Shown here piece by piece: positions 2,890 to 26,035 of a stretch of DNA of 49,839 nucleotides. The stretch's first letter is position 1. Each line of letters begins with the position of its first letter. The notes below the pieces were generated by a model, which did no database searches, was not told the DNA's origin, and was given only the letters and a program-made list of their open reading frames with translations. Source of the stretch: Diacronema lutheri (Eukaryota > Haptophyta > Pavlovophyceae > Pavlovales > Pavlovaceae); NCBI GenBank assembly GCA_019448385.1, contig JAGTXO010000093.1, positions 1-49,839 of the forward strand. Reading direction: 5' to 3'. Both the position numbers and the translations under genes were made by a program.

Positions 2890-2938
<49 letters not shown>

Positions 2939-2939
2939 A
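2890..2939. repeat. Poly-C run followed by CA repeat
   Basis: An uninterrupted run of 35 C (2890-2924) passes directly into a short (CA)n tract. It lies inside the relic region. Confidence 0.95.
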
Positions 2940-3480: not shown

Positions 3481-3497
3481 GGGGGGGGGGGGGGGGG

Positions 3498-3535
<38 letters not shown>
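3481..3535. repeat. Poly-G run
   Basis: Nineteen G, one A, then 35 G. It lies in the relic region and could form a G-quadruplex on the plus strand. Confidence 0.95.

Positions 3536-3937: not shown

Positions 3938-3938
<1 letters not shown>

Positions 3939-3978
<40 letters not shown>
3939..3978. repeat. Poly-G run of 40
   Basis: Forty uninterrupted G. Another run of 19 G lies at 5347-5365. Confidence 0.95.
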
Positions 3979-4740: not shown

Positions 4741-5884
4741 CGGGCTCGCCGAGGAGGTGCCGCCGCTCGCTGCCACCCGGCGCGGGCTCGGGGCAGCCGT
4801 CTTCGGGTGCCGCGCTCTTCGCGCCATGCACGAACGTTCCGCCGCGCTCGCAGCGCGCGAGCGCACACACAGAGCGCGCGGCGACCCCGGCGGGGGCAGT
4901 GCGTCCCGGTGGCACTCGCGGGCGCGCGCCTGGCCTGGGCGCAGCTGGGCGCGTTGCCGCCCGCGCAGCGAGCCGCCCGCGCGCCTCGCCGCGCGCGCGC
5001 TTCGTCGCACGCGTGCGCCCTGCATGCACGCGCACAGCGCGCGGCGGCTCGGCGCAGTGCAAGGCAGAGCGTGCTGCAACGGTTGCGAGGGCGCGCACGC
5101 GCGGCGCGGCGCGCCCCTGTGTGGTCGCCTGCGCGCGGCGCGTGGTCCGGACGCAGCTCGGTGGCGTGATGCCGTTCGTGCAACACAGTGCGCGTGAGAG
5201 CCGCACGTGCACACCTGCAGTGCAACGCGGCATTGCGCGCGTTGCGTGGGCGGAGCGCGGCTGGATGTGCTTGAGGTCGCGCAGCATGCCGCGCGCCGCG
5301 CGCTGTGCGGCGCAGCGAGTCGGCCATGCCCCTGGTCCTCGTCTCCGGGGGGGGGGGGGGGGGGGTGGTGGTGGCAACCAGGATCCGCCAGCGCGTGGTG
5401 GGCGCCGTCCAACTCCCAGCCAGGATGCGCCCCGTTCTTCCCCGACACTCTCCGTCCAAACCCGCCGCCCAGCCTGCCGCCGCACCCGCCGCCAACGCCG
5501 CCGCGCACCCATCCGCCGAGCTCACCTCGCGCGCGCTCGCGCTCACGCTGCGCGACGAGGCTGCGCAGGCCGGCGCGCGGCCGTGCAGAGCAGCGCAGGC
5601 CGGCGCGCGGCCGCGCGCGCGCGCTCACGTTGCGGCCGCGCAGCGAGCTTTCGCCGCGTCGCAGCCCCTCCGAGCAGCCACGATGCACGCCCCCGGAGGA
5701 CGTTGGCCGCGCTCGGAGGCCGCGCTCGGGCGCGCAAAGAGAGGCGGCGCGGGCAAACGAGTAGGCTCGGCGCGCTGGCGGGTCCTGGTTGTGGGAGAGC
5801 GGGGCATTCTCCAGGGCATCATGTAAATTCTCCAAAGTATCATCCGGGCCGCCATCCGGACACTGACGTGCCCACAGTCTGCAG
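4741..5884. promoter_or_regulatory. Upstream region of the giant gene, no gene recognised
   Basis: I see no supported coding gene here. An in-frame TGA at 5864-5866 lies seven codons before the ATG at 5885 and so limits the giant gene's first frame on the left. The bases just before that ATG (CTGCAG) would also make a splice acceptor, so an upstream exon cannot be excluded. A 30-bp duplication with GCAGGCCGGCGCGCGGCCG lies near 5567-5615. No TATA-like element stands out. Confidence 0.35.
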
Positions 5885-8800
5885 ATGGAGGACTCCGTGA
5901 AGGACGCTTTGCCCGGCGGGCGGGGCGGCTCGGACAGTTTCTCGCTGGCCCTCAGCACCATTCTGTCGCCGGGAGATACCCACCCCCACGTGGTCCCATC
6001 CACTTGCCTCATCGCCCTGCTGCGTTACGCGGATTTCGGCACGAGCAGGGTTAGGGTGGGCGACACGGGGTGCTCGCAGCATGCGCTCAAGGTGGCGCTG
6101 CGCAACCTGCGCAAAGCATGCGCGGATGCGGACCGGTTTGGGCAGGTGCTCGTGGTCGTGCTACCGCTCTGCCTCCGCGCGTCCAGCGGCCTCGTGCACT
6201 GGACGGCGGCGTACCTGCTCCTCGCGCCGCCCGCGCAGCGCGGCGCGCCGCCCGGCGCCGCGCTCGCCCTGCTCGCCGATTCGCGCACCTTGGGCAACGG
6301 CGAATCGGCGTACGCCACGGCGGCCGGCGTGCTCATCAAGAAGCTTGCGCAGCGCATCGGCAGAACAGCGCCGCCCATCGATGCCTTCAAGGCGCCCCCG
6401 CAGAGTGGGGCCGCGTGTTGCTTCGCCGCGGCAACAGTCGCGGCCGAGGTCGTGGCGAGCGCATCGACGCTCTACGGCCGCCGCGCGAGTGTCCTTGTCG
6501 ACATCAAGAAGGCTTTGGACGCGCGCCTCGCGCGCCTCACGACGGCCGCGTACGAGGAGACCCGCGCGCGCACGCTCCGCGCCGCCATCGGCGCTCTGCT
6601 CGGCGACCGCGCCAGGCGCTTCGGCCCGTTCACCCGCGAGGCCGCGCGGCTCGCCGAGGCCGCGCGGCTCGCCGAGGCGTGCGATGCCAGTGTCGGCGGA
6701 TCCGCGCCCGACGGGCTGCTGCAGGCCGTCGAGGCGGCGCTGCGCGCGCCCGACGACCGCATCGCACGCACGGCCGCGCTCGACGCGCTCACGGGCGCTG
6801 CAGGCCGCGCGCTGTCGACGGCGGCCAGGCCGCGCGGCGCGGCGGCGCCAAGGCCGCCGTCGCGAGCGCCACCGCCGCGTGCGCCGCAGCGGCGCGCCGC
6901 CTCGGCGTGGGGGCCCCGACCATTCAGCAGCCTCGGCGGGGGCGAGGGCGACGGGGACGATGGCGACGCCACCACCGCTGACGACGGGGAGGGCGCGGAG
7001 GACGGGGACGACGACCCCGCGGGCGCGGCGGCTGCGGCGGTGGCGACGGGCACGGCGGCGACGAGCGCGGTGGCGGCGGGCGCGGCGCCAACCTCGCCGG
7101 CGGCGGCGGACGGCGGTGGCTCGGCGCCGCTCGAACGCCGCTGCGTCTACACTGCGCCTGATGAGGGCGACGCGGACGCGCGCGTGTACGACGCCAAGGA
7201 CCCCGAGCAGCTAAAAGCGGGCAGGGCGCGGCCACGGGCGAACAGCGGGCGCGCGCCCGCCGTGGTCGACACGCTTTTCGCGCACGCGACGGGCACGATC
7301 GTCACGCGGCAGCGCACGGAGGGCGTGACCGGCGCGGGCATGCACCACCTCGCCGCCCCGACGCAGGGCGCGGGGTACGGTACCGTCGTGCGGGCCGAGC
7401 TGGGCGAGCCCGGCTTCGCGGGGACGACATGGCACATGACGTCGGGCGTGGAGAACCAGCCGCGCGCGGTACGAGCGGCCGCGCGCGCGTACGCGCACGA
7501 CGGCTGGGGCGGCGTGTACAATGCGCACGAGGACTTTGCCGCCTTCGAGGGCTTGCCGCGGCTCGCCGCGCCCGAATCGCTCGCGGCCATCGCCGGCGGG
7601 TCGGCGGACGCGGTGTTCTGCTGGCGGTCCGGCCGGTCCGTCATCGGCGAGGTGACGACGGTTCACTTCAATGGCGACCGCGCCGCCGCCATCGACCACG
7701 CGCGGGCGCTGCGCGTCAGGCCCGATTGGCGCTCGCAGCCCAGGATCTACGAGGCGGCGTGCGGCGCGGAGGGCACGGTGCTGCTCGTGTGGGTCGTGCC
7801 CGACCGTCACAAGAACCCGCGGCTGGACTGGGCGCCGATTCTCGTCGTGATCCACCTGCCCGCCGACCCCGACTGGCTCGCGCGCGCCACGCCGGCGATC
7901 GCGAAGGCGCGGCGCGAGGTCGAGGACGGACGCGCGCGCGCGGAGGCGCGCGGCGTGCCGCAGCACCTCGCCTACACGCTGAGCCCACGCTTCCGAGGCA
8001 CCGCGCCGCGCGGAGCCGCGCGCGTGCCGCCGCGCCTCGGCGCGAGCGACGCGCGCGAGGCGCGCGCGCTCGCGGCGCTCGAGCCGGCGCTCATGTTCGC
8101 GCCGGCCTGGCGGCGCGCGGTGCGCGCGGCGAGCCGCGCCCCCGGCAGTGGCGCCGCGGCCGTCGAGCGCGCGCTCGCGCGCCTGCACAACGCGCTCGAG
8201 CCCGATGACGAGAGCGCGCCCGAGTCGACGCGCGTCGCGCCGCTCGCCGCCGCGCTCGAGCAGTCGGCGGGCTGGCCGGCGGGCACGGCGCGCATGGCGG
8301 CAAGCGTGACCAAGGGCCCCGGCGTCGGAGATGGCGCAGGTGGCGACGAAGTGACCAAAGTGGAGGAAACGGCGAAGACGAGCGGCGACGGCTGCACCGG
8401 CACGCCTCCTCTGCGCCCGGCCGCGCGCGCGGCCGGCGCGGCGGACGACGGAGGGGCGGCGGTCGTGGCGGGCGTCGAGGGCGAGCGCGACGCACTCGCC
8501 AAGACGGGTGCCGGCGGCTGCGACGACGACGCTCGCGAGCCGCTGTCGGCCGGCAAGCCCGGCGCACTCGCCGCCGCGGCGACCGTCGGGGGTCTCGGCG
8601 AGCTCGTCGGCAGCCTATGCGCGTGGCTGGCGCGCGGCGCGGCTGGCGGCGCCATCGCGGCCACCTCCCCCGGGACGGCCGCGCGCGGAGCAAACGGCAC
8701 GCCGCAGCGCGCCGAGCCGCCGGCCGCCGGCGATCCCGTCGCTCCGCACGCGCGCGTCGCCGCTGCGGCGCCCTTGGCGGGCAGCGCGGCGGCGCCGTCG

Positions 8801-11800
8801 TCGGCCGCGCGCGACGCGCAGCGCGGCGTCGCGGGAGTCGACGCGGCCGCGCACGCGCACGCGCGCGACGGCAGGCGGGCGGCACGGCGGATGCGCGAGC
8901 AGGAGGGGGCGGTGCACAGGGCCTTCCGCATGTCCCTCTGGCGCGACGCGACGTTTGTCGAGTTCGTTGAGAAGCTGCGCCCCGACGGCGGCGCGCAGCT
9001 GCTCGCGCGCGAGCCCACGCGGCGCGCGGCGGCGGTGCTGTGCGAGCTCGCGCGCGGCCGCGACGGCGCGAGCGGCGCGGCCGGGCTGCTGCACGAGATG
9101 AGAGCCGCCGATGCGCGCGCGCGCGAGGCCGCCAAAGCGGCGGAGGCAGCGCAGCTTGCGCACGGGACGCTGCGCATCGTGGCAACCGTGGCGCTGGGCG
9201 GTGCGGTCTTCGCCGGCATGTCAGCGCTGGTCGTTGCTTGCGCGGCGCGCACGGCGACCGGTGCGCTTTTTGGGGCCCGCCGCCCGCGGGCGGCCGCGCG
9301 CGGAGCCGACGACGCGCTCGGCACGCTGCAGCGCGCCGAGCCGCCGCCCGCCGACAAGGGCAAGCGCAGGCGCGCCAGAGCCAACGACGACCCCGTCGAC
9401 GCGGCGCGCAAGGCCGTGGGCAAGGCGGAGGGCAACTGCCGCAAGGCAGCCCGCCGGCTGCACCTCGCTGCACTGGGCGAGGAGGAGGCGCAGCAGCGCG
9501 TGCTCGACGCCGAGGCGGCGGAGCAGCTGGCGCGCTCGCGCGAGCCGGCCGGCGGCTGGGTAGGCAGCGCGCGCGCGCGCGCGCGCGCGCGCCCCGCCGC
9601 GCGCGCGCCCGTCGATTGGCGTGCGCGCAGCGCAGAACGGCGCGCCAGCTCCGTCACCTGCGCGCCGCCGCGCCCGTGCCCCTCGCGCGCAGGGGCGCCC
9701 TGCGGACCTGCGGCTGCAACAGGCGCACTTTGGCATGCGCGAAGATGCCGACGCGGAAGTGCGCCGCGCGCACGAGGCGCTGCGCCGGGCGAGACAGGGT
9801 GTGGCGTGCGCCAAGGCCAGCGTGCGGCAGATGGAGGCGGCGTTGCTCAACGCGACGCGCTGCGCCACCGCGGTGCTCGCGCCGCGTGGCGTGCCGGAGG
9901 GTGACGAGCAGGCCGCGGCGAGAGAGCAGGCGGCGCTGGACCGGGAGGCGCCGCCGGCCGCGCAACGCGCGGCGCCGACGGCGCGCTCGCCCTCGGAGCC
10001 GCCGTCCGAGTGGGGCCCGCCAGCGGTCGGCCGGCGCCCGACGCCGCGTGCACTGTCGCACGCCGCGGGGCGCGGGGACGACAACCCGTTTGCGCCGCTC
10101 GCAACCGTCAGCGGCGATTGGTCGCCCACGCCGAGCTCGCGCCCGCCGTCCTCGCCGCCGCGGCAGCCGCCGTCCGACCGCCGCAGCGCGCAGCGTCGCA
10201 GCGCGCGCGCGCGGCCGCCGAGGCCGACCGTTTCGCCCGAGGACGCGCTCGCAGCCGAGCGCCAGGCGCGCGCGCTGTCGGAGCAGGCGGAGCGGAGGCG
10301 CGCCAAAAAGGCCGCCGCCAAGGCCGCGCGCCGCGCCGCGCGCGCCGCCGACAAGCGGACGGCGCGCGTCGTCCACGCGTGCGTAAGCGCCGCCTTGCGG
10401 CGCGTCTGCACGAGCGTCGCCACGGGCACGCCGCTCGCCGTGCTCCGCGAGCGCGCCGAGGGGCCGCGCGCGCCGAAGGCGGCGCCCGCGCCGCCACGCC
10501 GCGCAGCGGACGGCGGCCGCGCGCTCCGCCACGCGCGCCGTGCGGCCGCCGCGGCGGCGGAGCGCGAGGCGGCGGTGGCGGCCGACGCCGACGAGCGGTT
10601 CGAGCGGCAGCCCTCCGCCGCCCGGTTCGACGGCGGCGATGGCGGCGGAGGCGGCCACGTCGAGGCGAGCGCGCGACCGCGCGCCGGCGAGGCCGGCGAG
10701 GCTGGCGCGCACGGCGCGCCTGGCGCAGCGGGGACCCCGGCGGCGTCGCTCGCGTCGCGCAGCCCGTGTGATGCGCGCCGCACGGCACGCCTCCCGCACG
10801 CACGCGCCGCAGCCACCTGCGCACGCAACGGCGGCTGGGGTGGCAACGTCGGCGGCGACGTGTGCGGCGATTGTTTCGGCGGCGGCGGCGTCCGTCGCGA
10901 CGCCTGCGGCGGCGGCGACGCCACCTGCGGCTGCGGCGATGGCGGCGTCGGTGCTGGCGCTGGCGAGGCCCCTGCACACGGTGCGCCGGCGCGCGCGACG
11001 GCGTCGCGCTTGCTGCGCTTGCTCGGCGCGCCACGCGCCGTGCTCGGTGCGATGGCGCACGCCGCGGCCGTGTTGGCGCGCGGCGTGGCCGCAGCCGTCG
11101 CTGGCGTGCGCGCCGCCGCGCGCGCCGTGCGGCGCGCGCGCCGCCGAGCGCCTCGCGCGCGCCGCACGGCTGCGCGGCGGGCTCGCGGCCCGCCGATGCG
11201 CGACGTCGACGGCGCCCTGCGGCCCTCGCCGTCCTGGTTGCGCACACGCCTCGTCTGCGGCCGGCGCCTCGCGCCTCTGCGCCGCGCGGGCGCGCGCCCG
11301 CCGCCCGCACACGCCGCGCCGAGTTCCCGCGCGCGCGCTGCGCAACCCGACAGCGACGCGCCGGCGTGCGCGCCGCGGCGCTCGGCGCCTGTCGGTGCGC
11401 CGCCGCGCGCGCGTGGCCTGTGCGCGGCGCGCGCACGGCGCTTCCTCGACGTCGCCGGCCGCGCGGCGCGGAGCGCGCGCCTCGGCGCGCGCATCACGCG
11501 CCAGCGCACGCCGGGTTCGCCATCGGAGCCCTGCACGGCCGAGAGCGGCGACGGCGCGGGCGCCGGCGGCGTCGGCGCGGCGGCGCCTGGCGCGGCGACG
11601 ATGCGCGCCACCGGCGCGCGCGCAGCGCGCGCTGCGGCGGCGGCGGTCGGTGGCGCCTCGCGTCTCGCGCGCCGCGCGATGGCAAGCGCCGCCGCCGCTG
11701 CCACCTCCATCGCCGGCGCTGCCGCCTCGACCGTCGCCGCCGCCGCCGTTGCCATCGGCGCGGCCGTCACGTCACCGGCGTTCGCCGCGGCGCGCGGCAT

Positions 11801-14140
11801 GGCGGCCGCATGCGTCGCTGCCTGCGCCCGCCCCACCGCCGCGCAGGCGGCCGCGTCGCGCGCGCTCGGCGCGCTCTTCGTGCTCGTCGACGCGGCCGAC
11901 GCGGCGGGCGACAGCGACGCCGCGCTCGGCGCGCTCGCGGCCGCGGTCGACGCGACGGAGCTGCGCCCGCCGCCGGCCTTTTGGCGCGCGGGCCGCGCCG
12001 CGGCGTACGCACCGCGTCCGCCGCCCCTCGACTCGGCGCGGCCGCGCTACAACCGGCGCGCGCGCGCACCTAGCCCTCCCGTCGCGGCCGCGCGGCGCAA
12101 TCTCGCGCGCGCGGTGCGCGAGCTCACGCGCGCCGCGCGCGCTGAGCGCGAGCGCGCGCCGGCGCCGCGCGGCGCGCGCGGCGGCGTGCTCCACGCGCTG
12201 CGCGCGTCGCTCCCCGTGCACGCGCGTGCCGCGCTCGGCACGGACGCGGAGCTGCGCGCGGACATCGCCGCGTTCGCGCGCGCGCGCCGCGAGCTGCACA
12301 GCCTCACCGACGCCGAGGTGGCGGCGCTCGCGCGCCCGGACGGGCCGCCGCTGCCCGTGCGGCTCGCGTGCACGGCGGTCGCGCGCGCGCGCGGCGTGAC
12401 CGTGCTGCTCGACATCGTGCCGCGCGGCGGCGGCGCGCCCGAGCGGCTCGTGTGCCGCGCCCGTCGCCGCGGCGCCGCCACGCGCACGCCACGGCCGACA
12501 GCCGCCGTTATCGCGCGCGCGCCTTGCATAGCGGCGCGCGTTGGCCACACTGAGCCGGCGCGCGCGTGCGCGGGCGGATCGATCGGGGTCGCGCGCCTCC
12601 GTTCAGCGCGCCGCCGCTCTTGGCGTGGGGCGCGGCTCGACGTGCACACCCGCGAGCGGCTGGCCACACCGGTGCCAGGCCACGTCGTGGCCTGCGCCGC
12701 CGCCTCGGCCATCGGCGCGTGCGTCGCTCGCGCGCGGCTTGGGCTTGCACGGCTGGCGCGCGCGTGGCCCTGCGCCTCCGCTCCACTGGCCACTGCTGCT
12801 GTCGCCTTCGCGCCTGCCGCCGACGGTGTTTTCTGCGCCCCGCTGGGCGCTCCTGCATCCGCCTTCGCGCCTGCCGCCGACGGTGTTTTCCCCGCCGCAC
12901 TAGCCGCTGCTGCATCCGCCTTCGCGCCTGCCGCCGATTTTCCCGCCCCACTAGTTGCTCCTGCACTCGCCTCCGCGCCAGCCACCGACGGCGTTTTCCC
13001 CGCCCCGCTAGCCGCTGCCGCTGTCGCGTCCGCGCCTGCCGCCGCGGGCGTGTCCTCCGCCCCACCAGCCATCGCCGCCGCGCCCGCCGCCAACGTGCGC
13101 ACCGCCAACGTGCCCGTTGCCAACGAGGCTACCGCCACCGAACCAGCCGCCCTTGAGCTTCCCCTCCAACCCGCCAACTCGGCGCTGCTTGCGTGGGCGG
13201 GCGACGCGGCTGCGCGCCGGCTGGCCTCCGCCGCCGCGAGCGCCGGCCTCCCGCAGGCAGAGGTGGAGCGCATCGCCAGCGGCGACATGCTCGCCTCAAC
13301 CGTCGACGCGTGCTGCGAGGTCGTGCTACGCGTGCACGGGCAGGCCGGCGGCGGGCATGTCTGCCACGTGCCGCTCGCCGCGCAACCCGCGGTGTTCCAG
13401 GACGGCGCCGAGCGCGCCGCGCTGCTGCACCGCCTGCGCAGCGAGGCGACGACGCAGGCTGTCATCGGCGTGTGGAGCCCGTCGGACGAGCGCGGCGGCG
13501 CGGGCGGTGACGACGGCGCGCAGCTCGCCTCCGGCCATTTCACCGCGTTGCGCCTTGTGCGCGTCGCGCGCGCGGGCGAGCGTCGCTACGACGCGGTGCT
13601 CGTCGACACGCTCGCGTCGCCCTGCAGGCGGGCGCTCGTGCTCGCCACGGCGATAACTGCCACGCTGCACGCGGCGGGTCTCGACATTTCGCGCGTGCGC
13701 CGCGCGCGGCTGCTCGACGAGGCGGCGCAGCGTGGCGCGACGTGCGGCCTCGCGATAGTGGGCGCGCTCAACGACGCGCTCGCCGCGGCGGGCTGCTCGT
13801 CCGCGCCGCGCACGTTCAGCGTGGCGGACATGTACGCTGTCGGCGAGCGCCTCCGCGTCGCGCTGACCGGCGCGGCCAGCGATCGTGCGCCGGGCGGCGT
13901 CTGCGCGGGCACGAGCGCGGTGCGTGGCGGGGGCAGCCCCGATCGCGCCGAAGCGCCGCCGCAGACGCGCGTCGCCAAGGCCGCCGCTGGCGTCACCGCC
14001 GCCGCCACCGCCGCCGCCACGCCGCCGCCGCCCGCGCTGGGCGCCGCCGCCGCCGCCACCGCCGCCGCCGCCGCTGCTGCCGCCGCCGTGGCCGCGCCGT
14101 CACCGCCGCCACCGCCGCCGCCGGCCGGCGACGCGGGCGA

Positions 14141-14224
<84 letters not shown>

Positions 14225-17200
14225 GCGCACGTTCTTGAGGCTCGCGCCCAGGGCGCGCGCGGCCGCCTCGGCGCGTGAGGCGTTGCGCGCCGCGTGTGCG
14301 CGCGCGGACGCGGCGGCGTCGTCACACGCGTCGGCGCCGCACGCGCCCGCCGGTGCGCGCCGCCGGCGGCGCGCGGGCGCAGGCGAGCTGGCGCTCGCGG
14401 CTGCGCGCGCGCTCGCCTCGACGGAGCACGGCGATTTGACGGACGACGCGCTCGAGGCCGCCGTCGAGCAGGAGCTGGGCGACGAGCGCGGCCAACTGCT
14501 GCTGTGCACGCGGGGCGCAGCGGCGCAAAGGCCCGCGCTTTGCCGGCTCCTGAAGCACGCGTGCGCGTCGGCGCGCGCGGCGAAGCGCGCGCAATTCACG
14601 GTGTTCGTCGTGCGCGCGCCCACGCGCGGCGAGCGGGGGGGCGCCGCCGCGACGCGCGTGGACTCGGTGGTCGAGCTGTCGTGCGCGCTGCACGAGAAGG
14701 CGGGCGCGCTCGGCGGCCTCCAGAGCGTCTGTGTGCGTGGCTTTGCCCTCGAGCGCCGCCGGACACTCGACGGTGGCGCCGAGGCCGGCGCGTCCGCCAT
14801 CGGCCAGGACGAGCAGGTCGAGGCAGAGGCGGGCGAGGCGTGCGTCGCCGGCGTGACGATGGCCAAGCAGCTGCGTCAGTTTGCCGAGCAAGCTGCCCGC
14901 GACGACGTGCTCTTCCGCGTCGCCGTGTCCGAGGCCGACGCCCACGCCCGGCTGGCGCGCGTTGCGGGTGACGATGTCGGCGCGTACAGCGTCGTGCTCG
15001 CAGTCGCCGGGCTCGTCTGGCTGGCCAAGGCCGACGAGGTTGCGCCGGCGGCCGCCCAGTCCGCCGCCGCGCCGCCCGCCGCCCCGCCTGCTGCCGCCAC
15101 GTCCGCCGACGCCGAGCGCGACGCCTCGCCTTCCGACCGCCTGCGCGCGCTGACGCTCGCCGTGCGAGTCGCGCTCGCGCGCGGCGTGCTGCGCCACCTC
15201 CTCGCCGACGCGTCGCCGGGCGCGTCCGCGACCGCTGGCGGTAGTTGCGCGACGCCCGTCGAGGCGGCCGCGTCCGACGCCGCGCCGCCCGCCACGGGCG
15301 TCGTGACGAGTGGCGTCGCGGCGGGCGCTGTGGCGGCCGCACCGGCTGCTGCGGGCGGTGCGACGGCGGGTGCATCGCCCATCGCGCGGCCGGCGAAGCG
15401 CGCGCGGCGCACGCTCACCGCCGCTCCAGCCGCCTCGGCCGTTGCGGCCGCTGGAGGCGCACGCGCTGGCGCACGCGGCGCGGCCGGCGCGCCTCGCGCG
15501 CGCGCCGCGCGCGCGCCGGCCGAGTACGTCTGGCTTGCCATCGCGCGCCGGATGCTGGCGGCGCGACACGCGGCGGCCGCGGGCGGCGACTTTGTCGCGT
15601 CGTGCGTCGCCGCGATGCAGGCCGAGTACGGCGACGGCTGTGCCGTCGTCGTCGGCGACGCGCCTGGTGACGCCTTGGTCGAGGCTGCGGCGGCGGCGCT
15701 GCTCGAGGGCAAGCACGCGGCGGTGAGCCTCGGCTGCGTCGACCGGCCGGCGGTGCTCGTCGTGCAGCGCGCCGTGGATGCGCCCACGTCGCGCGTGCAC
15801 GGGTGGTGCGCGCACGCGGCGGGCGCCGCCGAGTTTGACGAGGGCGCCGCGCGCGACGTGTTCAACGCGATCGTCGAGCGCGCGTGGGCGCTGCGTCCGG
15901 ACCCGGCCGACGGCAGCCCGCCGCCCACGCGCACGTGGGAGGTCGGGCGCATCGCTGGCGACGCGCCCGACCAGGCGGGCGTGGCCGCGCTGCGCGTGCT
16001 CTACGCGCTCGTCGCGGCGCACGGCCGCTACCGCTCGGCCGCCGCGCTCTTTGGCGCGCTCGCGCAGCTGCACGCGCCCGACGCCGCCGGCGCGCGCGCG
16101 GAGGTCGTCGCGGCGGCGTGCGCGGTGCCGCCCGGCGCGCGGCCGGGCGCCGCGCCGGCGGCCGCGCGGGACGACGCGAGGGAGCGCGCATGGGAGGGCG
16201 CTCAGATCGCCGCGCTCGCCGTCGGCGCGGACGCTGCGCGCAGGCGTGTCGCGCCCGTGCGCGCGCTCGTCGACGCGCTCGGCACGCCACCGACCTCGGC
16301 GATCACGGGCGGGCCGGCGGTCCGGCTCGCGGGCGCGGGCGACGGCGGCCACGGTGTACGGTGGGTGGGCGAGCAGGCGGCGACGCCCGCCGAGCAGCTG
16401 CCGAGGGAGCTGCTGCGCGCCTACCACGAGGCGGTGCTGTGCGTCACGCCCGGCAGCCTCCAGCTCGGCCCGGCGGCGCTCGACGCGGTCACGCGGCCGC
16501 GCGAAAACGACACGCTGGAAGGCCTCCTCGCGCGCGTCAGCTGGCAGTGCGGCGCGAGGGCGAGCACGTGCGCCATGCTCGCCACGTTTTCCGAGCAGGC
16601 GGGCACCGGCTCGCGCGTCGCGCTCAAGGCCCTCCGCACGAGCTCCGACCTGGCCGGGCTGACGGCGGCTGCGGTCGGGCAGCAGGCGCCGCAGACGCCG
16701 CCGCCGCCGCTGCTCGTGATGCTCGGCCGCTGCCCCAGCCCGCTCGTCGGCGGCGGCCTCTTCCCGCCCGACCGCGCGACGGGCGAGCCGGCGGTGCACG
16801 CGGCGACGTCCGAGCTCGCCGTCGAGCTGCTGCGCGACGCGCGCGCGCTGGCCGGCACGGACGGGCGGCTCGTCGTGCTGTGCCTCGAGGCGTCCAACCC
16901 GCTCTGGTTCTGCCCCAAGGTGCGCGAGCTCGAGCTGCCGCGGACGCGGTCGGACGGCGTGCGCGCGTCCGGCTGCACCTGCCCTGCGACGTGCAGCGAT
17001 GCGCGCGGCGCGGCGGGTGGCGCTGCCCGCGGCGCATCGACGCGGCCGGCGGCGCGCGCGATCAACAAGGCGGTGCTCGACCACTTCGTCGCGCTTTTCG
17101 GCCGCGAGGGCTTCGCGACCTTTGAGTTTGCGGGCGGCGGCGAGGCGAGCTGGCTGTGCGACAGCGCGGCCGGCACGACGACCGTCGCGGCGTGCGCGTC

Positions 17201-20200
17201 GCTGCCGCCGCGCATGGGCGATGGGCAGCTGGCCATCCGGCGGCACACGCTCGGCACGGGCGCCGACGCGCCGGCGCACGCCGTCGTCTCGCTCCGCGTC
17301 GCGCACGTGAGCCACGCCATCCGCCGCGCGGCGGACGACGGCGGCGCGCGCGCCGAGCGGATGGCGCGCGCCGCGCGCGCGTTCTGCGATGTGGCGGCCG
17401 CGCTGCGCGTCGACGCGATCCTGGCGGAGGTGCCCGAGGACCGCCCGACGGGCACGCCCTTCCTTGGCGGGCTGCTCAAATTTTGGGACAAACGCAACGG
17501 GAGCTGGACGGCGCCAGCCACGCTCGCGCTCGGAGACGTGCGCGAGGTGGCCAAGCGGACGGCCGACGCAGCGGCCGGCCGAGCGGACGAGGTCCCTGCG
17601 GCTGGCCGTCCGCAGGTCGCGGCGCGCGCGTGCGCTGGCGCGATTGGCGGCGGCGCGGGCGCGGCGGGCGCCTCGGACGCTGCGCCCCGTGCACTGGCGG
17701 GCGCGTCGGGTGCGCGCACGGACGGCGGCCCTGCCGACGCACCGCGCCAGCTGGAGAGCCGCTACGGCGAGGCGAGCAAGCTCGACCTACCCCAACATTC
17801 CACTACGGGCTGCGTCCTCGACGCTCGCGAGGCCCAGGACCGCGCGCGCGTGCCTGCTGCGCCCGACGGCACAGCGCTGCGCCGCGTGCTCGACGCCGTC
17901 GGCGCGGGCGCGCCCGCGCAGCGCAGCCCGCGCTGGCACGACGAGCGATGGGAGGAGGTCACGGGCAGCAAGGTTGGCGACGTCGTGAACGACAACGCCG
18001 GCGTCGCGCACGAGACGCTCACCGACGAGTACGTGCACCGGCGGCGGCGCGAGGTGCGGACCAAGGCGACGACCGCGGGCATCCTCGGCGAGGCCGTCGC
18101 GCTGCGCAAGCTGGCGGCCGCGTACGGCATCACCGTCGTGTGCAACCTGCCGATGGTGCGTGCGGACCCGCACGACAAGAGCGCGCCGTTCGCCTTCTCG
18201 CCGGACGGGCTCGCCATCCTCCCCGAAAACAACGAGCAGGTCCTCGTCGAGGTGAAGACGCTCACCAAGGCGGGCGCCACGGCGCACGAGGACGGGCCGC
18301 CGCAGCCGCACCGCGATCAGCTGCAGCTCGGCATGCACGTCCTCGGCGTGAGCAAAGCGCTCTACGTGCAGTACCTCAGGCACGAGGACCGGATCGTCGT
18401 GCACGTCGTGACGCGCGGCGCCGGCTGGCTTGCATTCGCGCAGCCGAGGGTGCAGGCCTTCTGGGCGCGCGTCGTCGAGCGGCGCGCGCGGCTCGAGCGC
18501 GCGCGCGCCGACCACCCGGCTGCGAGCCGGCGGCACCGGCGGCAGCAGACGCCGGCCGGGCCGCCGCTCGTGCTCGCGCTGGACGGGCGCATCCCCGCCG
18601 CGCGCGCCGCCGCGCTGCACGCCGTCGCGCACGGCACCGCGAGCGCGGCGGCGGTGACGGCGGCGGCGGCGACGGGCGACGCGACGGCGTTGCAAGACGC
18701 GATCGCGGCGCTGCGCGCGCCCGTCGGCAATGCGGCGATCGACAGCGCAGCGCGTGCGGAGGGCGCGGCCGTCGAGCGGGCGATCGCGTACCTCGGGCAG
18801 CCGGCGGGCGACGCCGCCGCCCGCGGCACGGCCGAGGCGGCCGAGGAGGAGAGGACGGTCGACGCCGACATCTGCGCGTTGCTGCACCAGCTCGGCGCGA
18901 GCGTGGCGCACGTGCACGTCGAGGACGCGGATTGCGTCACGCGTGAGCACTGGGGCGAGGCGGTGCTCGCTGCAGCGGACGACCCGTCGAGCGCCCCCGC
19001 CATTTCGAGCGTCATCGTCGCGCACATCGTGCGCCTCGCCGGCTTTGGCGTCGAGCTCCCGCAGTCGATTCGCGTCGCCCCCAGCACGGCCGACTGGCAC
19101 GAGGGCTGGCTCGACGTGCAGTGCGTGCTGCTGCGCACGCGCCGGCGCGGGCGGCGCGACGACGACTTTGTGGCCGTCGTCAGGCGCGGTGGGCGCTGGT
19201 TTGCGTGCGAGCCCGGCCGCGCGCGGCGGCTGCAGTGGCGGTCGGTCCTACGCCGCGCGCGCGGCGGCGTCGACGGGACCGGCGAGGAGGCGTTCGCGAT
19301 CGTCTACGTGCGGCGCGGCGACGCGGCCGGCGACGCGGCTGGCGACGCGCAGGCCGCACGGGCGCGCGGCGGGCGCGCGCGCAGGCGCACGCGCGGCGGC
19401 ACGCGCAAGCGCAAGCGCGGCGCCTCCGCCGGGCTCGAGGCGGCCGCGCCCGCCGGCGCGCCGGCTGCCGCGCCCGCCGGCGCGCCGGCGGGCGCTGCTC
19501 ACCGCCCGCCCGCCATGCGCGCCACGGTCGCCGCGCGCACCACGCGCTCTGTGACCGACGCGCTGCACTCGGCGCCTGCCGCCACGGTTGCACCTGTCTT
19601 CGACTGGCGCGCCGGCCGCCCGCCCCCCGCCGCTCGAGCCCGCCACCCGCGGCCGCGTGGGCGCGCGCCACCGGGCAAGGCCTGGGACAGCGTCTCGGGT
19701 GCGTGGGCGGACAAGCCGACTGGTGCTGCCGTCGCCGCCGCGCCGCCGCCGCTGCCGCCCGCCGCCGCGCCGCCGCCCACCGCCGCGCCGCCGCCCGCCG
19801 CCGCGCCGCCGCCCGCCGTCGCGCCGCCGCCCGCCGCCGCGCCGCCGCCGCCGCCGCCACCGGCGGCGCTCGGCCGCCGGCAGCACGTCGGCGCGGGCGG
19901 CAGCGCGGCGGGCCGGCGGCTCGCGGCCATCGCACGGCGGCAGCGCGGCGTGCGCGCGCCGCCGCCCGCCGCGCGCTTCCTCGCCACGCTGCCGCCACCG
20001 CCACGCGACGGCCTCGCGCGCACGAGCAAGCAGGCGCGCGCGAGGCGCAACGCGGACGGACGGCCGGCGCACGCGCGCGCGGCCAACGCGCGCGCCTTCT
20101 ACCGCGGCGTGGAGCTCGGCGTGCACGCGACGCGCGCCATCGTCGACGCGCGCCACGCCGACCTGCCGCAGGCCGTCTTCGTGGCGGAGGCGCGGGCGAT

Positions 20201-23200
20201 CGTCGCGCGCTCCGCCGGCGGCGGCGCGCTGCTCGCGCCGGACGACGTGCGCGACCTGTGCGACGCGCAGACGGACGCCGATCGCGCTGCGATCTGGGCG
20301 TCGGTGGGCGCGCACGAGGCGACGCGCATCTTCGCGCTCGTCACGCGCAACGCGAGCTTGGCGGGCGCGGCGCTGCTCGTGCTGCACACGCCGGCGGGCG
20401 CGCCGGCGCGCGCGCTCGGGCTCCTGGCGACGCGCTCGCGCGCGCCGTCGACGGGCGCGCCGCGCGACGCGCACAGGGCGCTGGTGCAGCGGTTGGACGT
20501 GCTGATGGACGCGATCGCCGCGGCGCGAGGCGCGTCGCCGCTCGAGCTCGGGCTCGCGCTCGCGCCCGAGCCGCAGAGCGCGTGCAACGCGCGTGCGGCC
20601 GCGCTGCTCTGCCTGCAGGCCGTCGCGGACGCGAGCGGCCGTCCCGCCGCTGAGGACGCGCTGGCCGCGCTCGACGACGCGCGCGGCATCGACCGGCACT
20701 GCCACGCCGTCCGGCAGCAGATCGAGGCGAAGCTCGCGTGGCGGCGCGCCGACGGCGCCGTCGGCGTTGACGGCGCCGACGGCGCGCCCGCGCTCGCGCC
20801 TGCCGCCGCACCGCCGGCGTGCGCGCCGGCGCACGCTGCCGGCGAGGCGGCAGTCGACCAGGCGATCGTCACGCGGGTGCGCGACGCGCTGCGCGCGTGG
20901 GCGACGACTGGCACCGCGCCCAGCGCGGCGGTGCTCGACGACGCCTGCGCCGCGTACACGGCCCGCGCACGCGCGCGCAAGGACGCGCGCACGGCGCTGG
21001 GCCCGACGCGCGCGGCCGAGCTGCTCGCCGCGGCCGCGCGCGGCGGAGCCGACGGGGCGGATGCCGCGCGCGCGCTGCTCGGCGGCACGCCGCGCCTGCT
21101 CGTCGTGCTCCTCTGCGTGCCCGTCGCCGCGCCGTCCGGCGAGCCGCCGCGCCCGGTCGGGCTGCTCGTCGCCGACCGGCCGACGGACGACTCGCGCCCG
21201 GCCGCGCTCGTGCGCTACGACTTTGCGCCGCTCGACGCGGACGTGGCCGTCGCGGTCGGCGCGCATGCCGTCGCGCTGGCCAGTGCGATCTGGCCGCTGC
21301 TCGCGGCCGAGGGGGAGCCGCGGCCATCGCCCGTCGTGCGCTCGCAGCCGCGCGGCGGCGACGATGGCGCGCGTGCGCTCGCAACGTTCGCGTGCCTCGA
21401 CGCGCTGATGACCGCCAGCGTCGGCGCGCACGGCCTCGCGGGCGGCGCGGGCATGCTGCCCGCGCTGGTCGCGCGAGGCGCCGCGGCCGCCCAGCGCGAG
21501 CGGCAGCTGCGCGCGGCCGCCGAGAGGCTGGGCGGCACGGTCGCTGGGTGGCCGGACACGGGCGCGAGCGCGGCGGGCGCGAGCGTCGACGAGGAGGCGC
21601 GCACGTACGAGGTCGAGGCGGTCGTCGACGAGCGCCGCAAGGCGGGCAAGAAGGTGACGTTCCAGTTCCGGATCAGGTGGCGGGGCTACGACGAGAGCGC
21701 CGACACGTGGGAGCCTGAGGCCAACGTGAGCAGCGACCTCGTCGCCCAGTTCCGCAAGACGCGCGACGAGCAGAAGCGGCGCGCGGGCGTATCGGGCAGC
21801 GGCAGCGGCGGCGCGGGCGCGGCGTCGGCATTGGCGTCGGCGCCGCTTCGCGCGCACGGCGAGTCGGGCGCCGCGGGCAAGCGCGCCGCGGCGGGTGCCG
21901 CCGCGAGCGCGCGCGACGCCGCGGGCGCGCGCGCGCCGAGCGTTCCCCGCGCGCGCGGCGTCGAGCGCGCGCGCGTGGACGAGCCCGCTGCGCCGAGCGC
22001 GCGCGCCGCCGGCGGCGCGACGGCGCGCACGCGCGTCAGCGTGCTCCCGGGCTTCGTGGTCAAGCGCTCGACGCTCAACGCGGGGCCGCAGGCGGTGACG
22101 GCGCAGCCCGGTGCGCGGAAGGAGCTGCGGCGCATCGCGGCGGCCGTGCACAGGCTCACGACACAGGCGTACCGCGTCATCAACAAGGTGGTGCGCGACG
22201 AGGCTGCGGTGGCGAGCGCGCAGGCCGTCGGCGCGGCGTCGGGCGGCCCGTCGACCAGCGTGCACACGTCGACCACGATGGACAAGGGAACCGTCCGTGC
22301 GATCTTCTCGGCCATCGGCTGGCACAAGGACGAGAGCACGTACGGTGCAGCGCCCCGAGGCAAGCCCGCCGAGCAAGCCGCCGCGCAGACCAAGGCGGCG
22401 ACGGCGCGCGCCGTCGGCGAGATGGCCGAGGGCGTCCAGCCCGTCTGCGCGGTGGGCCTCACGGAGATCCTCGAGGCGGAGGCGACGCAGGTGTCCACCG
22501 CGTGCCTGATGCATCCATCGCGCGTCGTGAACGGGCTGCTCCGCGACGTCGTCCGCGCGGCAGTCGAGCGCGACGAGGCGCTCGTCGCGCTGCCCGAGAT
22601 GCAGCGAAACGCGCGCGTGCGCGAGCTGTGCGAGCGGCTGCTGCGCGGCGACGTGGAGGGCGCGCGCGTCGGCTGCCCCGCCGCGCTCGACCGCCACCTG
22701 CCCGACATGGTCCTCCACAAGATCGACTACAAGTGCACGCCCACGAAAAGGTGGAACTACGACCGGCACACGACGCGCTACTTCCTCGTGCAGATCCGCA
22801 CCCTGCAGCACGTGGCCGAGGGGCAGGCGCTGCTCTGCCGGCTCGCGCACATCCACACGCAGCTGACCGGACGGCCGCCGCGGTACAATGTGGCGCCGCT
22901 GCGCACGCACAATGTGCGCGCGAGGCGTGGCTGCCGCTGCCGCCGCCGAGCGCCCAAGCGCGCGCGCCGCCGCCGTGCGCGCCGCCCCGCGGCCAGGTTG
23001 GTCACGCGCCCGCGCGCTCGCGCGCCGCGCGCTGCGCGCAGGTGCCGCGCAACGTGCGCCTCGCCGCGAGCGCCATCTGGGTGACGCTTTCGGATGACGA
23101 GCGCAAGGAGCTGCGCGCGCGGCTCAAGGCGCTGGACCTGCGCGACCACGATGGCGAGCCGATCAAGTGGACAGGCACAAACGGCAACACCCCGCCGATG

Positions 23201-24766
23201 TCGGACGTGCGCGTCAGGTACGCGGTCTTTGCGACGCGCTTCGACATCTCCAACCGCGTCTTCGACTACGCCGGGCGCGAGCGGCCGCCGGCCGATCTGC
23301 CGTGGCACGCGCGGCGCTCGTGGGTTGGCCTCGCGCCGCTGCCGCGCGTGCCGCTCCCGGGCCGGCAGCCCGTCAAGTCGGTGGTGACAGATGGCGTCGC
23401 CGTGCACGCCGTCGGGACCGTCCTCGTGCCGAAGGCGCAGGCGCCGGCCGGCGGCTCGGGCGTCCTGCACCGCTGGCGCCGGCCGGACGGGCGCATCGCC
23501 GTCGCGCTCGGCTCCGAGCTGCGGCGGGCGATCGACGTCGAGGCGGCGGTCGTCGTCGCGGCCGACCCGAACATGGGCAACATCACCACCTACTCTGCGC
23601 ACGTCGGGCGGGCGGCCGTCTGGCGGCAGTTCACGCAGCGCGCGCGCGCGCGCGCCGCGGGCTTTGCGCGCGAGACGGCCAAGACCAACGCGGCGCGGCG
23701 GCGCGTGCGCACCGACGGGCGCGGCGAGGAGTTCAGCGTGGAGGCGGACGAGGCGCGGCTTGGCGAGGCGCACAGCGCCAAGGTGCTCGGCGAGGGCGAG
23801 TTCCACGCCTTCCACCGCGAGAGCGCGCGGGTGCGCGAGCGCGCCGCCGAGCACGTGTACGACGCGCCGGCGCGCCGGAAGGAGCGCTGGCGGCGCGACA
23901 GCGGCGGGCGGTCCAACGCGGCGCGCGTCGCCGAGGCGCTCATCGCGGCGCACTGTGTCGACGGCGTGACGCGCGACCGGCTGCTCGTGTGCGTGGGCAA
24001 GTGGCTGCGCGACCACAAGGGCGCGCAGCCCAAGGGCGCGCCGCCCGCCTTCCAGGTGGGGCTGCTGCGCGAGCTGCGGCGGCGCGGCGTCGCGGCCGTC
24101 TTCGTGCCCGAGCCGTACACGTCGATGCACTGCTCGATGCCGCGGCTCGCCAAGGGCGGCAGGCTGCAGCGCTGCGGCGCGGAGCTCGCGCAGAACCCGC
24201 GCCTGCCCGTGGCAAAGGGCGGCACGCGCACGGTGCACGCGCTCGTCATCTGCCCGGCGTGCAACGGCGGCAAGAAGCCCGTGCACCGCGACTACAACGC
24301 CGCGCGCAACATCTTCTACGACGTGCACGACATGGCGGCGCACGCGGCCGGGCGCGACACCACGTCGACGCCTGAGCGCTTTGCCCTCGTGCTCGCCTGG
24401 TGGGCGCGCGGCGAGGTGTGGGAGCGTGAGGAGCGCATGGTGCACGGCGAGGGCGACGACTGCGACGACGAGTGCGACGGCGACGACGAGGGCGACGACG
24501 AGGGCGACGACGACGACGACGACGATGGCAGCGGCGACGGCGGCGGCGGCGAGGGCGACGGCGACGGCGACGGCGACGGAGGCGGCGGCGGCGACGACGA
24601 CGATGACGGCGGGGGAGGCGGCGGCGGCGACGGCGGTGGCGACGACGGCGGCGGGCGCGGCGGCGGTGGCGGCGGCGGCTCTCGCGCCCGCACCCCCGCC
24701 CGCGGAGCTGCCAGCGCCAGTGCCGGCGGCGGCAGCGCGCGCGGGCCGAAGCGCGGCCGGCGTTGA
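5885..24766 (+). CDS. Giant multidomain gene: C48 proteases, YqaJ nuclease, chromodomain and C-terminal Fanzor
   Basis: Proposed exons are 5885-9559, 9693-22913 and 23042-24766. Both introns (133 and 128 nt) are GT-AG, phase 0, and end in GCGCGCAG. The joined frame gives 6206 residues. Domains by residue: C48/Ulp1-like protease 20-200; transmembrane helix about 1096-1123; coiled coils about 1140-1290; Ala-rich and repeat region; C48-like protease about 2385-2608; dead protease-like domains about 3168-3338 and 4692-5141; YqaJ nuclease about 3969-4150; USP-like remnant about 4379-4434; chromodomain about 5192-5255; Fanzor about 5342-6090; acidic Gly/Asp tail ending in a basic KRGRR. No stop interrupts 13 kb of the middle exon, so one polyprotein is the simplest reading, but several genes joined by unseen in-frame introns remain possible. 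The domain set is that of a mobile element: an RNA-guided nuclease, an exonuclease, SUMO-type proteases and a chromatin reader. I see no DDE transposase, integrase or DNA polymerase. Confidence 0.7.
5945..6490 (+). other. C48/Ulp1-like cysteine protease domain 1 of the giant protein
   Basis: The order and spacing of catalytic residues fit the Ulp1/adenain fold: His105 followed by Trp (VHWTAAYL), Asp132 followed by Ser (LLADS), Gln173 (PPQSG) and Cys179, with Cys178 next to it. Gln to Cys179 is six residues, as in yeast Ulp1 (QPNGYDC). Family members remove SUMO-like tags or process polyproteins; many eukaryotic transposons carry one. The residue pattern is seen directly, and activity is inferred. 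Confidence 0.7.
9172..9258 (+). other. Transmembrane helix within the giant protein
   Basis: A single hydrophobic stretch (residues about 1096-1123, containing VALGGAVFAGMSALVVA) sits between two charged Ala/Glu/Arg-rich coiled-coil stretches. A membrane anchor is unexpected in a nuclear nuclease, and may mean the N-terminal part is cleaved off as a separate product. Confidence 0.55.
12803..13080 (+). repeat. Five tandem copies of a 57-bp (19-residue) coding repeat
   Basis: Units start at 12803, 12860, 12917, 12968 and 13025, each opening with CGCCTTCGCGCC or a close variant and encoding FAPAADGVF-like text. Four steps are 57, 57, 51 and 57 bp. The short one lost exactly two codons, so the reading frame is kept. 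That supports translation in this frame. Confidence 0.8.
13170..13860 (+). other. C48/Ulp1-like cysteine protease domain 2 of the giant protein
   Basis: The triad is again in order: His2507 (SGHFTAL), Asp2530 (VLVDTLA) and Cys2576 (RGATCGLA), preceded by a Gln five residues earlier. His-Asp spacing is 23 and Asp-Cys 46, close to the family (Ulp1 17 and 49). The domain begins with a WAGD tract resembling the WLxD that opens many transposon Ulp1 domains. It appears complete. Confidence 0.68.
14140..14224 (+). repeat. GCC triplet run encoding poly-alanine
   Basis: About 28 GCC codons in a row within the giant gene, after a Pro-rich linker. It separates the second protease domain from the next folded region. 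Confidence 0.9.
15520..16030 (+). other. Protease-like domain lacking the catalytic cysteine
   Basis: Residues about 3168-3338 follow the C48 layout: a YVWLAIARRML start, a central strand pair with His (KHAAVSL) and Asp (CVDRP), and an end segment PDQAGVAALRVLYAL that aligns with the family DCGVFVL. Ala3320 stands where the catalytic Cys would be. The resemblance is by eye and needs profile confirmation. Confidence 0.35.
17921..18470 (+). other. YqaJ / lambda-exonuclease-type nuclease domain
   Basis: Residues about 3969-4150 match YqaJ-type recombinases in order: QRSPRWHDERW (the QxSxxWxxxR entry motif), GILGEAVALRKL (conserved Glu), SPDG with Asp4063, EVK with Glu4078 and Lys4080, and HRDQLQLGMH with Gln4101 and Gln4103. 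These are the active-site blocks of the PD-(D/E)XK fold. Such nucleases degrade one strand from a double-strand end to feed annealing recombination, and are common in phages, large DNA viruses and eukaryotic transposons. All catalytic positions look intact. Confidence 0.82.
19080..19320 (+). other. USP-like C-terminal segment without its histidine
   Basis: Residues about 4355-4434 end with DDDFVAVVRRGGRWFACEP followed by EEAFAIVYVRR. This resembles the end of USP proteases (GHYxxxV...WxxFDD...AYxLFY), but the catalytic His position reads Asp or Phe. No Cys box is seen upstream, so this would be a binding module or a relic. It is a weak call. Confidence 0.3.
19735..19860 (+). repeat. APPPxA proline repeat in the giant protein
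   Basis: Successive copies of an 18-bp unit (GCCGCGCCGCCGCCCGCC-like) encode APPPAA and its variants, followed by seven prolines. It is probably a disordered linker between the nuclease part and the chromodomain part. Confidence 0.8.
20090..21440 (+). other. Two further protease-like domains with replaced cysteine
   Basis: Residues about 4692-4875 and 4948-5141 each repeat the layout of protease domain 1. The second contains LLVADRP at the Asp position and then SQPRGGDDG, which aligns residue for residue with Ulp1 QPNGYDCG but has Asp5116 in place of the catalytic Cys. The first has PQSACNARA, with Arg where the Cys would fall. The second is the clearer case. Dead protease folds often serve as binding modules. 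Confidence 0.42.
21592..21783 (+). other. Chromodomain of the giant protein
   Basis: Residues about 5192-5255 read as a standard chromodomain: YEVEAVVDERR, then FQFRIRWRGYDES, then DTWEPEANV, then LVAQFRK. The aromatic cage positions are filled by Tyr, Trp and a Tyr or Trp of the WRGY...TWEP blocks. Chromodomains bind methylated histone H3 tails and, in mobile elements, direct insertion to marked chromatin. It sits about 85 residues before the Fanzor. Confidence 0.92.
22040..24400 (+). other. Fanzor RNA-guided nuclease domain (TnpB relative)
   Basis: The N-terminal part (residues about 5342-5632) has the helical start typical of Fanzor1 proteins (LPGFVVKRSTLN, then YRVINKVVRDE). The nuclease half lies after the second intron. 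The RuvC triad is Asp5807 (AADPNMGN), Glu5989 (FVPEPYTSMHC) and Asp6049 (VHRDYNAARNI). The VGKWLRDHKGAQPKG block before Glu5989 matches the Fanzor VGxW...KG region. Zinc ligands are seen at TSMHC, LQRCG and ICPACN. Fanzors cut DNA guided by an RNA made from the 3' end of their own locus. All key residues are present, so the nuclease is probably active. Confidence 0.9.
24440..24766 (+). other. Acidic Asp/Gly-rich tail with terminal basic signal
   Basis: After the RuvC-III block the giant protein ends in about 95 residues of Asp, Gly and Glu from GAC/GGC repeats, then a basic GPKRGRR just before the stop, a possible nuclear localisation signal. In Fanzor loci the guide RNA can overlap this end of the gene, so the repeats may also shape an RNA. 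Confidence 0.7.
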
Positions 24767-25165
24767 CGCACGGCCGAGCCGCGCAGCGGTCGACGCTTTG
24801 CGGGCTCTGCCCAGGTCGCGCGCGGCTGGCGACGCGTGCCGCGCGCGGCACGACCGTGCACGCCGCCACCCGTGGCCGAGCGCGCCGCACCAGCCGGCCC
24901 GCTCCAACCGCCGTGCGGATCACGGACGCTCGCTACGGCTCGTCGGCGCGCGTCACCTGCGCCGGCGGCCACGGCGCCGTCTGCTCCGGCCTCGTCGCGA
25001 GCAGCCCGACCGCTGCTCGCCGCCCGCACGCCGCCGCAGCAACGCTGCGCGTCGTGCTCCCCCGCTCGCCAAACGCGAAGAGCTCCCTCACAAGGACGTC
25101 CTTCCGAACGGCCCGCGCTGCACTCGGGGCGCGATCGTGCCCCTGATCGGATTTGGCTTGACCAT
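24767..25165. other. Convergent intergenic region after the Fanzor, possible guide-RNA region
   Basis: This is 399 bp between two convergent genes, with no supported coding sequence. By analogy with known Fanzor loci, a guide RNA would be expected to begin in the last part of the gene or here. I see no clear hairpin or terminal inverted repeat that fixes its ends. The last 60 bases become less GC-rich. Confidence 0.3.
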
Positions 25166-26035
25166 CTATACGTACGAGTACGGCCAGTCGCCCGCCTCGT
25201 AGCCGTCGTACCCGTGCGCGCCATCGTACGGCGGCGTGCCGTCGTACGCGGGGCGCGCGTGGCTGGGCGCGCGCGGCGCGCGGCGGGCGATGGCGTGGGC
25301 GTCGGTGCGCGCAGCATGCCTGTCCGCCTCCACCTTCTCGTCCTGCACGTGCGCCTCCTGCACTGAACGGTGCAGCAGCGAGAGCAGCCGGCCGAGCTCG
25401 GCGGAAGGCTCGGGCTGCGCACACGCCACACGCGGCACGCCCGGCGAGCGAGGCGCGAGCATGAGCCGGGGGGGTCGCGCGCCGTGCGCTCAACACGCGA
25501 ACGGGTCGCTTCGCGCGCGCGCGGCGCGCACCTGAGCATCGCGCGCGGCGGCGGTGGCCGATGCAAGCTGCTGCGCAAGGCCGTGGTACGCCACGACGAG
25601 CTGATCATAGCGCGAGTGAAGCGCGTCGTTCTCTTCGTGCGCCTCGCGCAGCGAGCGCGCGTACGCTTCGACCGCGTGCAGCAACTCGGCCTCGCTCGCG
25701 CGGCCCAGCTCCCACGCGGACCGCAGCCGTCCGAGCTCTGCGCGCACATCATCAATCAGCGCACCCGCATCCGCTCCGCGCGCTGCACCGCCGCGCCAAG
25801 CGCGCGGCGCGTGGCCGTGCGGGCCGGCGACGAGCCCGCCCGCGCCACGTGGGCGCGCGTACGTTGGGCCGGCCGTGTCGATTTCCGGCTCATAGCCGTC
25901 CGCCCGTCGGCGCGACCGAGAGGCGGCGGGTGCACGCGGCGCAAACGACCACGCGCGCGTCTGCCGGTCGGCCACCGTGCGGCGGGGCTGCTGATGCCAG
26001 TCCCACGCGGTCTGCGAGAAGTCGTCGCGAGACAT
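25166..26035 (-). CDS. Coiled-coil protein with Tyr/Gly/Asp-rich tail, unknown function
   Basis: Two exons, 26035-25532 and 25414-25166, are joined by a 117-nt GT-AG intron at phase 0 and give 250 residues. The start MSRDDFSQ at 26035 is preferred; another ATG lies eleven codons upstream. The N-terminal third is basic and disordered. Residues about 95-215 are helical with heptad spacing (LIDDVRAELGRLRSAWELG, then EENDALHSRYDQLVVAYHG), broken by the exon junction. The last 30 residues repeat YDG and end DWPYSYV. It is convergent with the giant gene. I do not recognise a family. The clean splice and sustained helix favour a real gene. Confidence 0.65.

Follow-up and report, generated by a model that had tools for sequence, protein, structure and literature searches.

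A young, high-copy DNA transposon in Diacronema lutheri whose last gene is predicted to join a RecE-type nuclease, a chromodomain and a Fanzor

The window analysed here, a stretch of 49,839 nucleotides, is the first 49.8 kb of contig 24 of Diacronema lutheri, and comparison of copies shows that the giant gene at positions 5885-24766 is the last gene of a DNA transposon of about 31 kb. The reading that we favour, tentatively and with somewhat less than even confidence, is that of a young, high-copy element of unassigned superfamily, the 3' gene of which encodes a single multidomain protein carrying a YqaJ-type nuclease, a chromodomain and a Fanzor that act together as proposed below. This reading is supported by the constancy of ends and size in 13 of 16 copies, by the absence of stops from all 146 scored YqaJ pieces, by the presence of intron 2 in an annotated gene, and by the position of the Fanzor as the last gene part before the element end. 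It is weakened by two related proteins, P0004 and P0005, which are short, start at or just after the intron acceptor and could be stand-alone proteins, by copies of about 26 kb that lack the N-terminal part, by the short frames of some copies and by dN/dS values that mostly lie near or above 1, as well as by the absence of any relative of the giant protein and of any other species with a chromodomain-Fanzor stretch in our searches. The coordinates of the features are collected in Table 1.

Table 1. Features of the element and its giant gene, in window coordinates unless a contig is named
Feature	Position	Strand	Basis
3' 25.2 kb of the transposon	1..25171	+	About 99% match to other copies, which stop at 25171
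USP-type peptidase remnant	1703..2386	+	Window copy: three motifs in three frames
Exon 1	5885..9559	+	Open frame, codon-position GC, GT-AG
Candidate Ulp1-like segment	5927..6571	+	His-Asp-Gln-Cys order by eye, unsupported
Possible second PD-(D/E)XK-like nuclease segment	7274..8026	+	D...GEVTT, weak
Intron 1 (predicted)	9560..9692	+	133 nt, GT-AG, contains (GC)n tract
Exon 2	9693..22913	+	Open frame, codon-position GC, GT-AG
Second candidate Ulp1-like segment	13167..13883	+	His-Asp-Gln-Cys order by eye, unsupported
YqaJ / RecE-lambda-exonuclease-type nuclease	17934..18344	+	Pfam 4.3e-4, phrog_434 5e-17, TIGR03033 4.3e-7
Chromodomain	21606..21758	+	Pfam 6.7e-12; PDB matches CDYL, HP1 and others, best 8.4e-9
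Presumed Fanzor N-terminal part	22032..22913	+	Position; exon 3 continuity in KFE25_006464 for last 70 residues, rest inferred
Intron 2	22914..23041	+	128 nt, GT-AG; identical junction in KFE25_006464
Exon 3	23042..24766	+	Fanzor RuvC and zinc-finger part, acidic/glycine-rich tail, stop; Pfam TNB, P0005 alignment
3' region to element end (405 nt)	24767..25171	+	Guide RNA place by analogy, position alone
Contig ends at element 3' terminus	C1:1, C12:1, C8:187138, C3:444900 of 444901, C33:753447 of 753448, C10 start

A genome-wide copy search and the mapped ends confirm that the giant gene belongs to a mobile element with other copies, as the first-pass annotation had proposed. The extent given there, 5885-24766, holds for one gene, whereas the element itself begins some 5.9 kb ahead of window base 1 and ends at 25171. 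The first-pass gene set likewise missed a PIF1 helicase and a USP-type peptidase located upstream, together with the full unit of about 31 kb and its copy number. The first 5.9 kb or so were read in L029-L033, with 5' ends taken from other copies. Thirteen of the 16 end-mapped copies measure 30,961-32,212 bp and three (C34, C5 and C3:293k) measure 26,013-26,516 bp. The 5' end reads [C]TATATA[C/G/T]GGCGCGGTCC, with the C preceding it in 12 of 16 copies and TATAGA in one, and the 3' end reads ...GACCATCTATAC in 17 of 17 tabulated junctions, the next base being G in 11 of these. No terminal inverted repeat was seen at the element ends. Judged by eye, a target duplication (13 bases) is present in one of the 14 copies with both flanks read, C9:2907k, and absent at the other 13 paired junctions. 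The three flank positions before the 5' C are 75, 62 and 88% AT across 16 copies, the GC content of the genome being 73%. Downstream, from about 29.7 kb on, the window contains host-type genes (metallophosphatase, ATG9, CBF/Mak21).

In C34 and C5, the only two of the shorter copies with their 5' parts read, the equivalent of window 516-8289, which covers the USP and the first 2.4 kb or so of exon 1, is swapped for about 2 kb of other sequence. A short Fanzor RuvC-like piece lies inside the replaced stretch of these 26-kb copies (L024:5079-7088 and L016), with pairwise E values of 7e-5 to P0005 and 3e-4 to window exon 3 and without a Pfam match; it is perhaps the remnant of a second Fanzor.

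Several observations concern the surroundings and the repeats of the element. The 5' flanks of C34, C8:74k, C4:227k and C3:413k are related and end in AAGCGYCnTTA directly before the element, and that of C4:1097k is a near match, which may reflect either a preference for such targets or insertions that hit copies of a different repeat. Several contigs start or end within a few bases of the 3' terminus, with the 3' end outward, either as an assembly break or as a real DNA end; TTAGGG telomere arrays are present elsewhere; C15 and C30, for example, start with one. At L030 ~6100-6980 (element 2.0-2.9 kb) there is an inverted repeat of about 0.88 kb, the arms of which are about 91% identical as matched to other copies, with TGTAGGG-type repeats near the arms. 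Very long G or C homopolymers occur at window 3480-3535, 3938-3978 and 42557-42720, in both element and host DNA, a 31-base minisatellite occupies 38472-39700, and a GAGGGT array at 48702-48911 precedes a direct repeat of 300 bases, the copies of which lie at 48911 and 49258.

All copy counts from the genome search are lower bounds. For window 23000-23600, 263 candidates include at least 40 identical copies, which is the number scored, and the YqaJ piece has at least 146 near-identical matches (98-100% identity, scored of 239 candidates), none of which contains a stop. The frame around this piece reaches at least 4,450 aa in 90 of the 146, 3,900-4,449 aa in 18 and less than 3,900 aa in 38; 22 of the 90 long frames exceed 4,530 aa, in some cases perhaps because the (GC)n tract of intron 1 has changed. 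The Fanzor exon has at least 76 matches scored of 458 candidates, 75 of them without a stop. For the helicase N-terminal piece, at least 150 matches were scored of 260 candidates, a few of them being two pieces of one copy, with identity down to 54% and stops in three. Where it is defined, dN/dS between copies ranges from 0.58 to 2.48 and mostly lies near or above 1, so that selection on the fused protein is not visible at this level. The element is very young and stems from a recent burst. If most copies are full length, about 150 x 31 kb would amount to roughly one tenth of the 43.5-Mb genome, as a rough estimate and not a measured value. The genome paper gives 22.9% repeats, with LTR and LINE elements making up 32.7% and 3.8% of masked bases (PMC8379373), and the element may account for much of this repeat content.

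When the exons are joined from the ATG at 5885, a protein of 6,206 aa with a single terminal stop and two introns is obtained, which bears out the earlier claim of one continuous spliced frame of about 6200 residues. The central frame, 9564-23084, spans 4,506 codons; since a stop is expected about every 151 codons from the dinucleotide content of the region itself, a frame of this length has a probability of about 1e-13. In each of the 13 bins examined across the three exons, GC content peaks at the third codon position and is lowest at the second. Intron 1 is a predicted splice; in L024, the single copy aligned across it, the (GC)n tract has 6 nt fewer. For intron 2, the annotated D. lutheri gene model KFE25_006464 (P0007) is identical to the window frame at 69 of 70 residues; it opens with a Fanzor fragment, in part different from that of the window, in which the same two exons are joined, continues into SAM domains, and is either a chimeric model or a captured piece. 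The annotation that includes this model drew on RNA-seq in general, according to the genome paper (PMC8379373). Frame and domain profiles agree that the Fanzor, the YqaJ-type nuclease and the chromodomain share one spliced frame, as had been claimed, and a single polypeptide of 6,206 residues may be made. Relatives of the giant protein were absent among 1,293 scored candidates, as was the chromodomain-Fanzor stretch in other species among 8,000.

The identity of the chromodomain, already named in the first-pass annotation, is firm as judged from its profile match (45.6 bits in Pfam versus a cut-off of 25.1). That of the nuclease as a member of the RecE/lambda-exonuclease type is also firm: the RecE-like exonuclease family phrog_434 matches over the domain, in agreement with the earlier assignment, although the window copy stays below the curated cut-offs. 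The Pfam YqaJ match has an E value of 0.032 on the whole ORF and scores 21 bits on the cut-out domain, just under the cut-off of 22, and the TIGR03033 match over the domain is below its own cut-off. In a Pfam YqaJ search of the genome itself, one of 150 scored candidates passed at E <0.001; it belongs to a sister copy located on C71 and reaches 28.2 bits, above the Pfam cut-off. An annealing protein was not recognised in the segments scanned. The Ulp1-like proteases had been proposed from motifs, seen by eye; a Pfam scan at E<=10 found no protease family in the segments that it covered, exon 1 shows no Pfam family, and the two best candidates gave nothing relevant in PDB and nothing in PHROGs. 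The AlphaFold model of the segment at 5927-6571 has a pLDDT of 41. The Ulp1-like proteases should be read as a lead, the supported peptidase being the upstream USP.

The Fanzor assignment, which the first-pass annotation had also made, is upheld by three lines of evidence: the Pfam family PF07282 (Cas12f1-like_TNB) matches above its cut-off (E 4e-6, 27.3 bits versus 26.3), the alternative-glutamate motif is present, and a relative, P0005, shares 46% identity across the aligned exon and has the catalytic residues of the window protein. The published Fanzor pattern, D-X(125-275)-[TS][TS]XX-C4 zinc finger-X(5-50)-RD (PMC3627910), is matched by D175, T360-S361, C364, C378, C404, C407 and RD, the first cysteine pair being C-X13-C. 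The alternative catalytic glutamate of Fanzors has been described in the form ExxxxxxC (PMC10711439) and appears as EPYTSMHC in the window and EPYTTKHC in P0005. At RuvC-I, the window copy has DPN versus DPG in P0005; DPG is described as near exclusive at this site, a statement made of most and not all Fanzors (PMC10711439). The NCBIfam guided_TnpB match is far below its cut-off (0.024), and no Fanzor chain was found among PDB sequence matches in searches at E<=1 and E<=10.

Upstream of the giant gene, the PIF1 helicase was read in the C9 copy as two overlapping frames (PIF1 4.2e-14 and 1.8e-24, Pif1_2B 6.2e-13), and in PDB it comes closest to Helraiser, a Helitron protein (8.6e-7); the part preceding it has no match in Pfam or PHROGs. 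The USP motifs lie in one frame in L018, L022, L026 and L028, and two of the three do so in L014. The intact USP of the sister copy L028:1600-2493 (C22 copy) matches Pfam UCH (8.8e-9, 35.8 bits versus a cut-off of 23.9) with its Cys and His boxes and has USPs as PDB matches (best 0.0087); the window ORF covering the region, 1547-2833, has no Pfam match. On the minus strand near the 5' end (L030:4217-6176), overlapping frames, one of which starts with MYPQNVSELLPDEIFGDELL, look coiled-coil-like by eye; the pieces of them that were scanned matched nothing in Pfam or PHROGs. Reverse transcriptase, HUH Rep, DDE and recombinase families were not recognised in the ORFs scanned.

The 3' end of the element suggests how the Fanzor might be guided. 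The order Fanzor, stop, 405 nt, terminus matches the place of the guide RNA in the Spizellomyces Fanzor locus, for which a 75-nt scaffold before the element end and 14-15 nt of flank as guide are described (PMC10432273). By this analogy, a guide RNA may arise from the 405-nt 3' region. The last 200 nt of the element fold no better than shuffles (z -1.29), and no Rfam family was found in the 3' region. In the mechanism that we propose, the Fanzor would take its guide RNA from this region, the adjoining host DNA beyond the element end serving as the guide, and would cut the same site on chromosomes without the element. The fused RecE-type exonuclease would then resect the break, favouring copying by recombination, and repair would copy the element back, presumably with the help of the helicase, so that the element would be retained. 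The chromodomain may keep the complex at selected chromatin. An enzyme outside the families recognised here would insert the element at new sites, and the element may be autonomous. We consider it rather unlikely that the element represents a new superfamily in which a polyprotein couples RNA-guided cutting, resection and chromatin binding, and in which break-induced recombination drives much of the spread in place of a classical transposase.

The main competitor, which we regard as possible and less probable than the single protein, is that the long frame gives several products, the Fanzor (about 570-870 aa) being a separate, selfish passenger and the YqaJ and chromodomain parts serving transposition separately. 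P0005 (674 aa) starts at the codon right after the intron 2 acceptor and P0004 (570 aa) four codons later, both being predictions on contigs of 2.8 and 2.4 kb, respectively, and the Fanzors described so far are for the most part separate proteins (PMC3627910). This explanation has to contend with a frame and a codon-position bias that are unbroken from the start of exon 2 through the YqaJ domain and the chromodomain to intron 2, and with intron 2 itself, which joins exon 2 to the Fanzor. That the element is a repeat already dead or on its way out, with long frames that survive only because the burst is recent and a fusion that is now without function, is hardly credible. The dN/dS values, the frameshifted USP of the window copy and the 38 copies with short frames would fit such a repeat, but stops are absent in 146 of 146 YqaJ and 75 of 76 Fanzor-exon matches, and the 46% identical Fanzor elsewhere keeps the same catalytic residues.

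It is improbable that the element is a rolling-circle element of Helitron type whose Rep has diverged beyond recognition and which carries the Fanzor as cargo, as in the Chlamydomonas Helitron2. The affinity of the helicase to Helraiser, the lack of visible inverted terminal repeats and the missing duplications at 13 of 14 junctions point in that direction, as do HUH-like regular-expression matches in the giant frame at 18903 and 20688. The copy with the 13-base duplication is without the usual first base, which recalls Fanzor1-bearing Helitron2 families in the published account (PMC3627910). The only Helitron_like_N match of the genome, however, is at C63:35738-36019 (8.3e-23), a contig with no listed copy, the element ends are not TC...CTRR, and a terminal hairpin does not outscore shuffled sequences at the 3' end (z -0.67), while that of the 5' end is weak (z -1.80). 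A helicase, a lambda-type exonuclease and a ubiquitin-type peptidase, as well as the size, are virus-like traits, and would suit an endogenous virus or virus-derived element, polinton-like or related to giant viruses. We judge this origin very improbable, as no capsid, packaging or polymerase family was found in the ORFs scanned with Pfam, which divergent capsids could escape, and no relative was found in four of four viral-contig scans, in which single-protein queries detect close relatives only.

The single multidomain protein that we favour bears on the question of why eukaryotic transposons carry Fanzors. In an element with at least about 146 near-identical copies, the Fanzor stands in one frame with a chromatin reader and a nuclease of the resecting type, so that guide, cut and repair could be tested in a culturable alga. 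Fanzor-bearing transposons are already known; the carrier and the fusion look new, and the superfamily is possibly new. The combination of Fanzor and YqaJ was not found in a literature search run without the Science Advances Fanzor survey, and an article on retrotransposons mentions Fanzor and chromodomain separately (PMC6338049).

Each part of the element recalls a known system. Chromoviruses, which are LTR retrotransposons, also have an element protein with a chromodomain, as named in that article (PMC6338049), whereas the D. lutheri element has neither long terminal repeats nor, in the ORFs scanned, a reverse transcriptase family. Helitrons and Helitron2 elements share the PIF1-type helicase, nearest to Helraiser in PDB, the usual lack of a target duplication and the lack of a visible terminal inverted repeat; the D. 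lutheri element differs in having no recognised Rep, other termini and a far larger giant frame. The match to phrog_434 over the domain relates the nuclease to the phage RecE, lambda exonuclease and YqaJ recombination nucleases, whereas in D. lutheri it lies in a eukaryotic giant frame and no annealing protein is recognised in the segments covered by the scan. A further likeness is to the Fanzors as presented in the 2023 study of Saito and colleagues (PMC10432273), with the RuvC D-E-D residues, the alternative glutamate placed six residues ahead of the zinc-finger cysteine, the RD motif and a position adjoining the end of a DNA transposon. Compared with that description, the D. lutheri protein has DPN instead of DPG and a first cysteine pair that is not CxxC, its carrier is of unassigned superfamily, and its frame also holds a chromodomain and a RecE-type nuclease.
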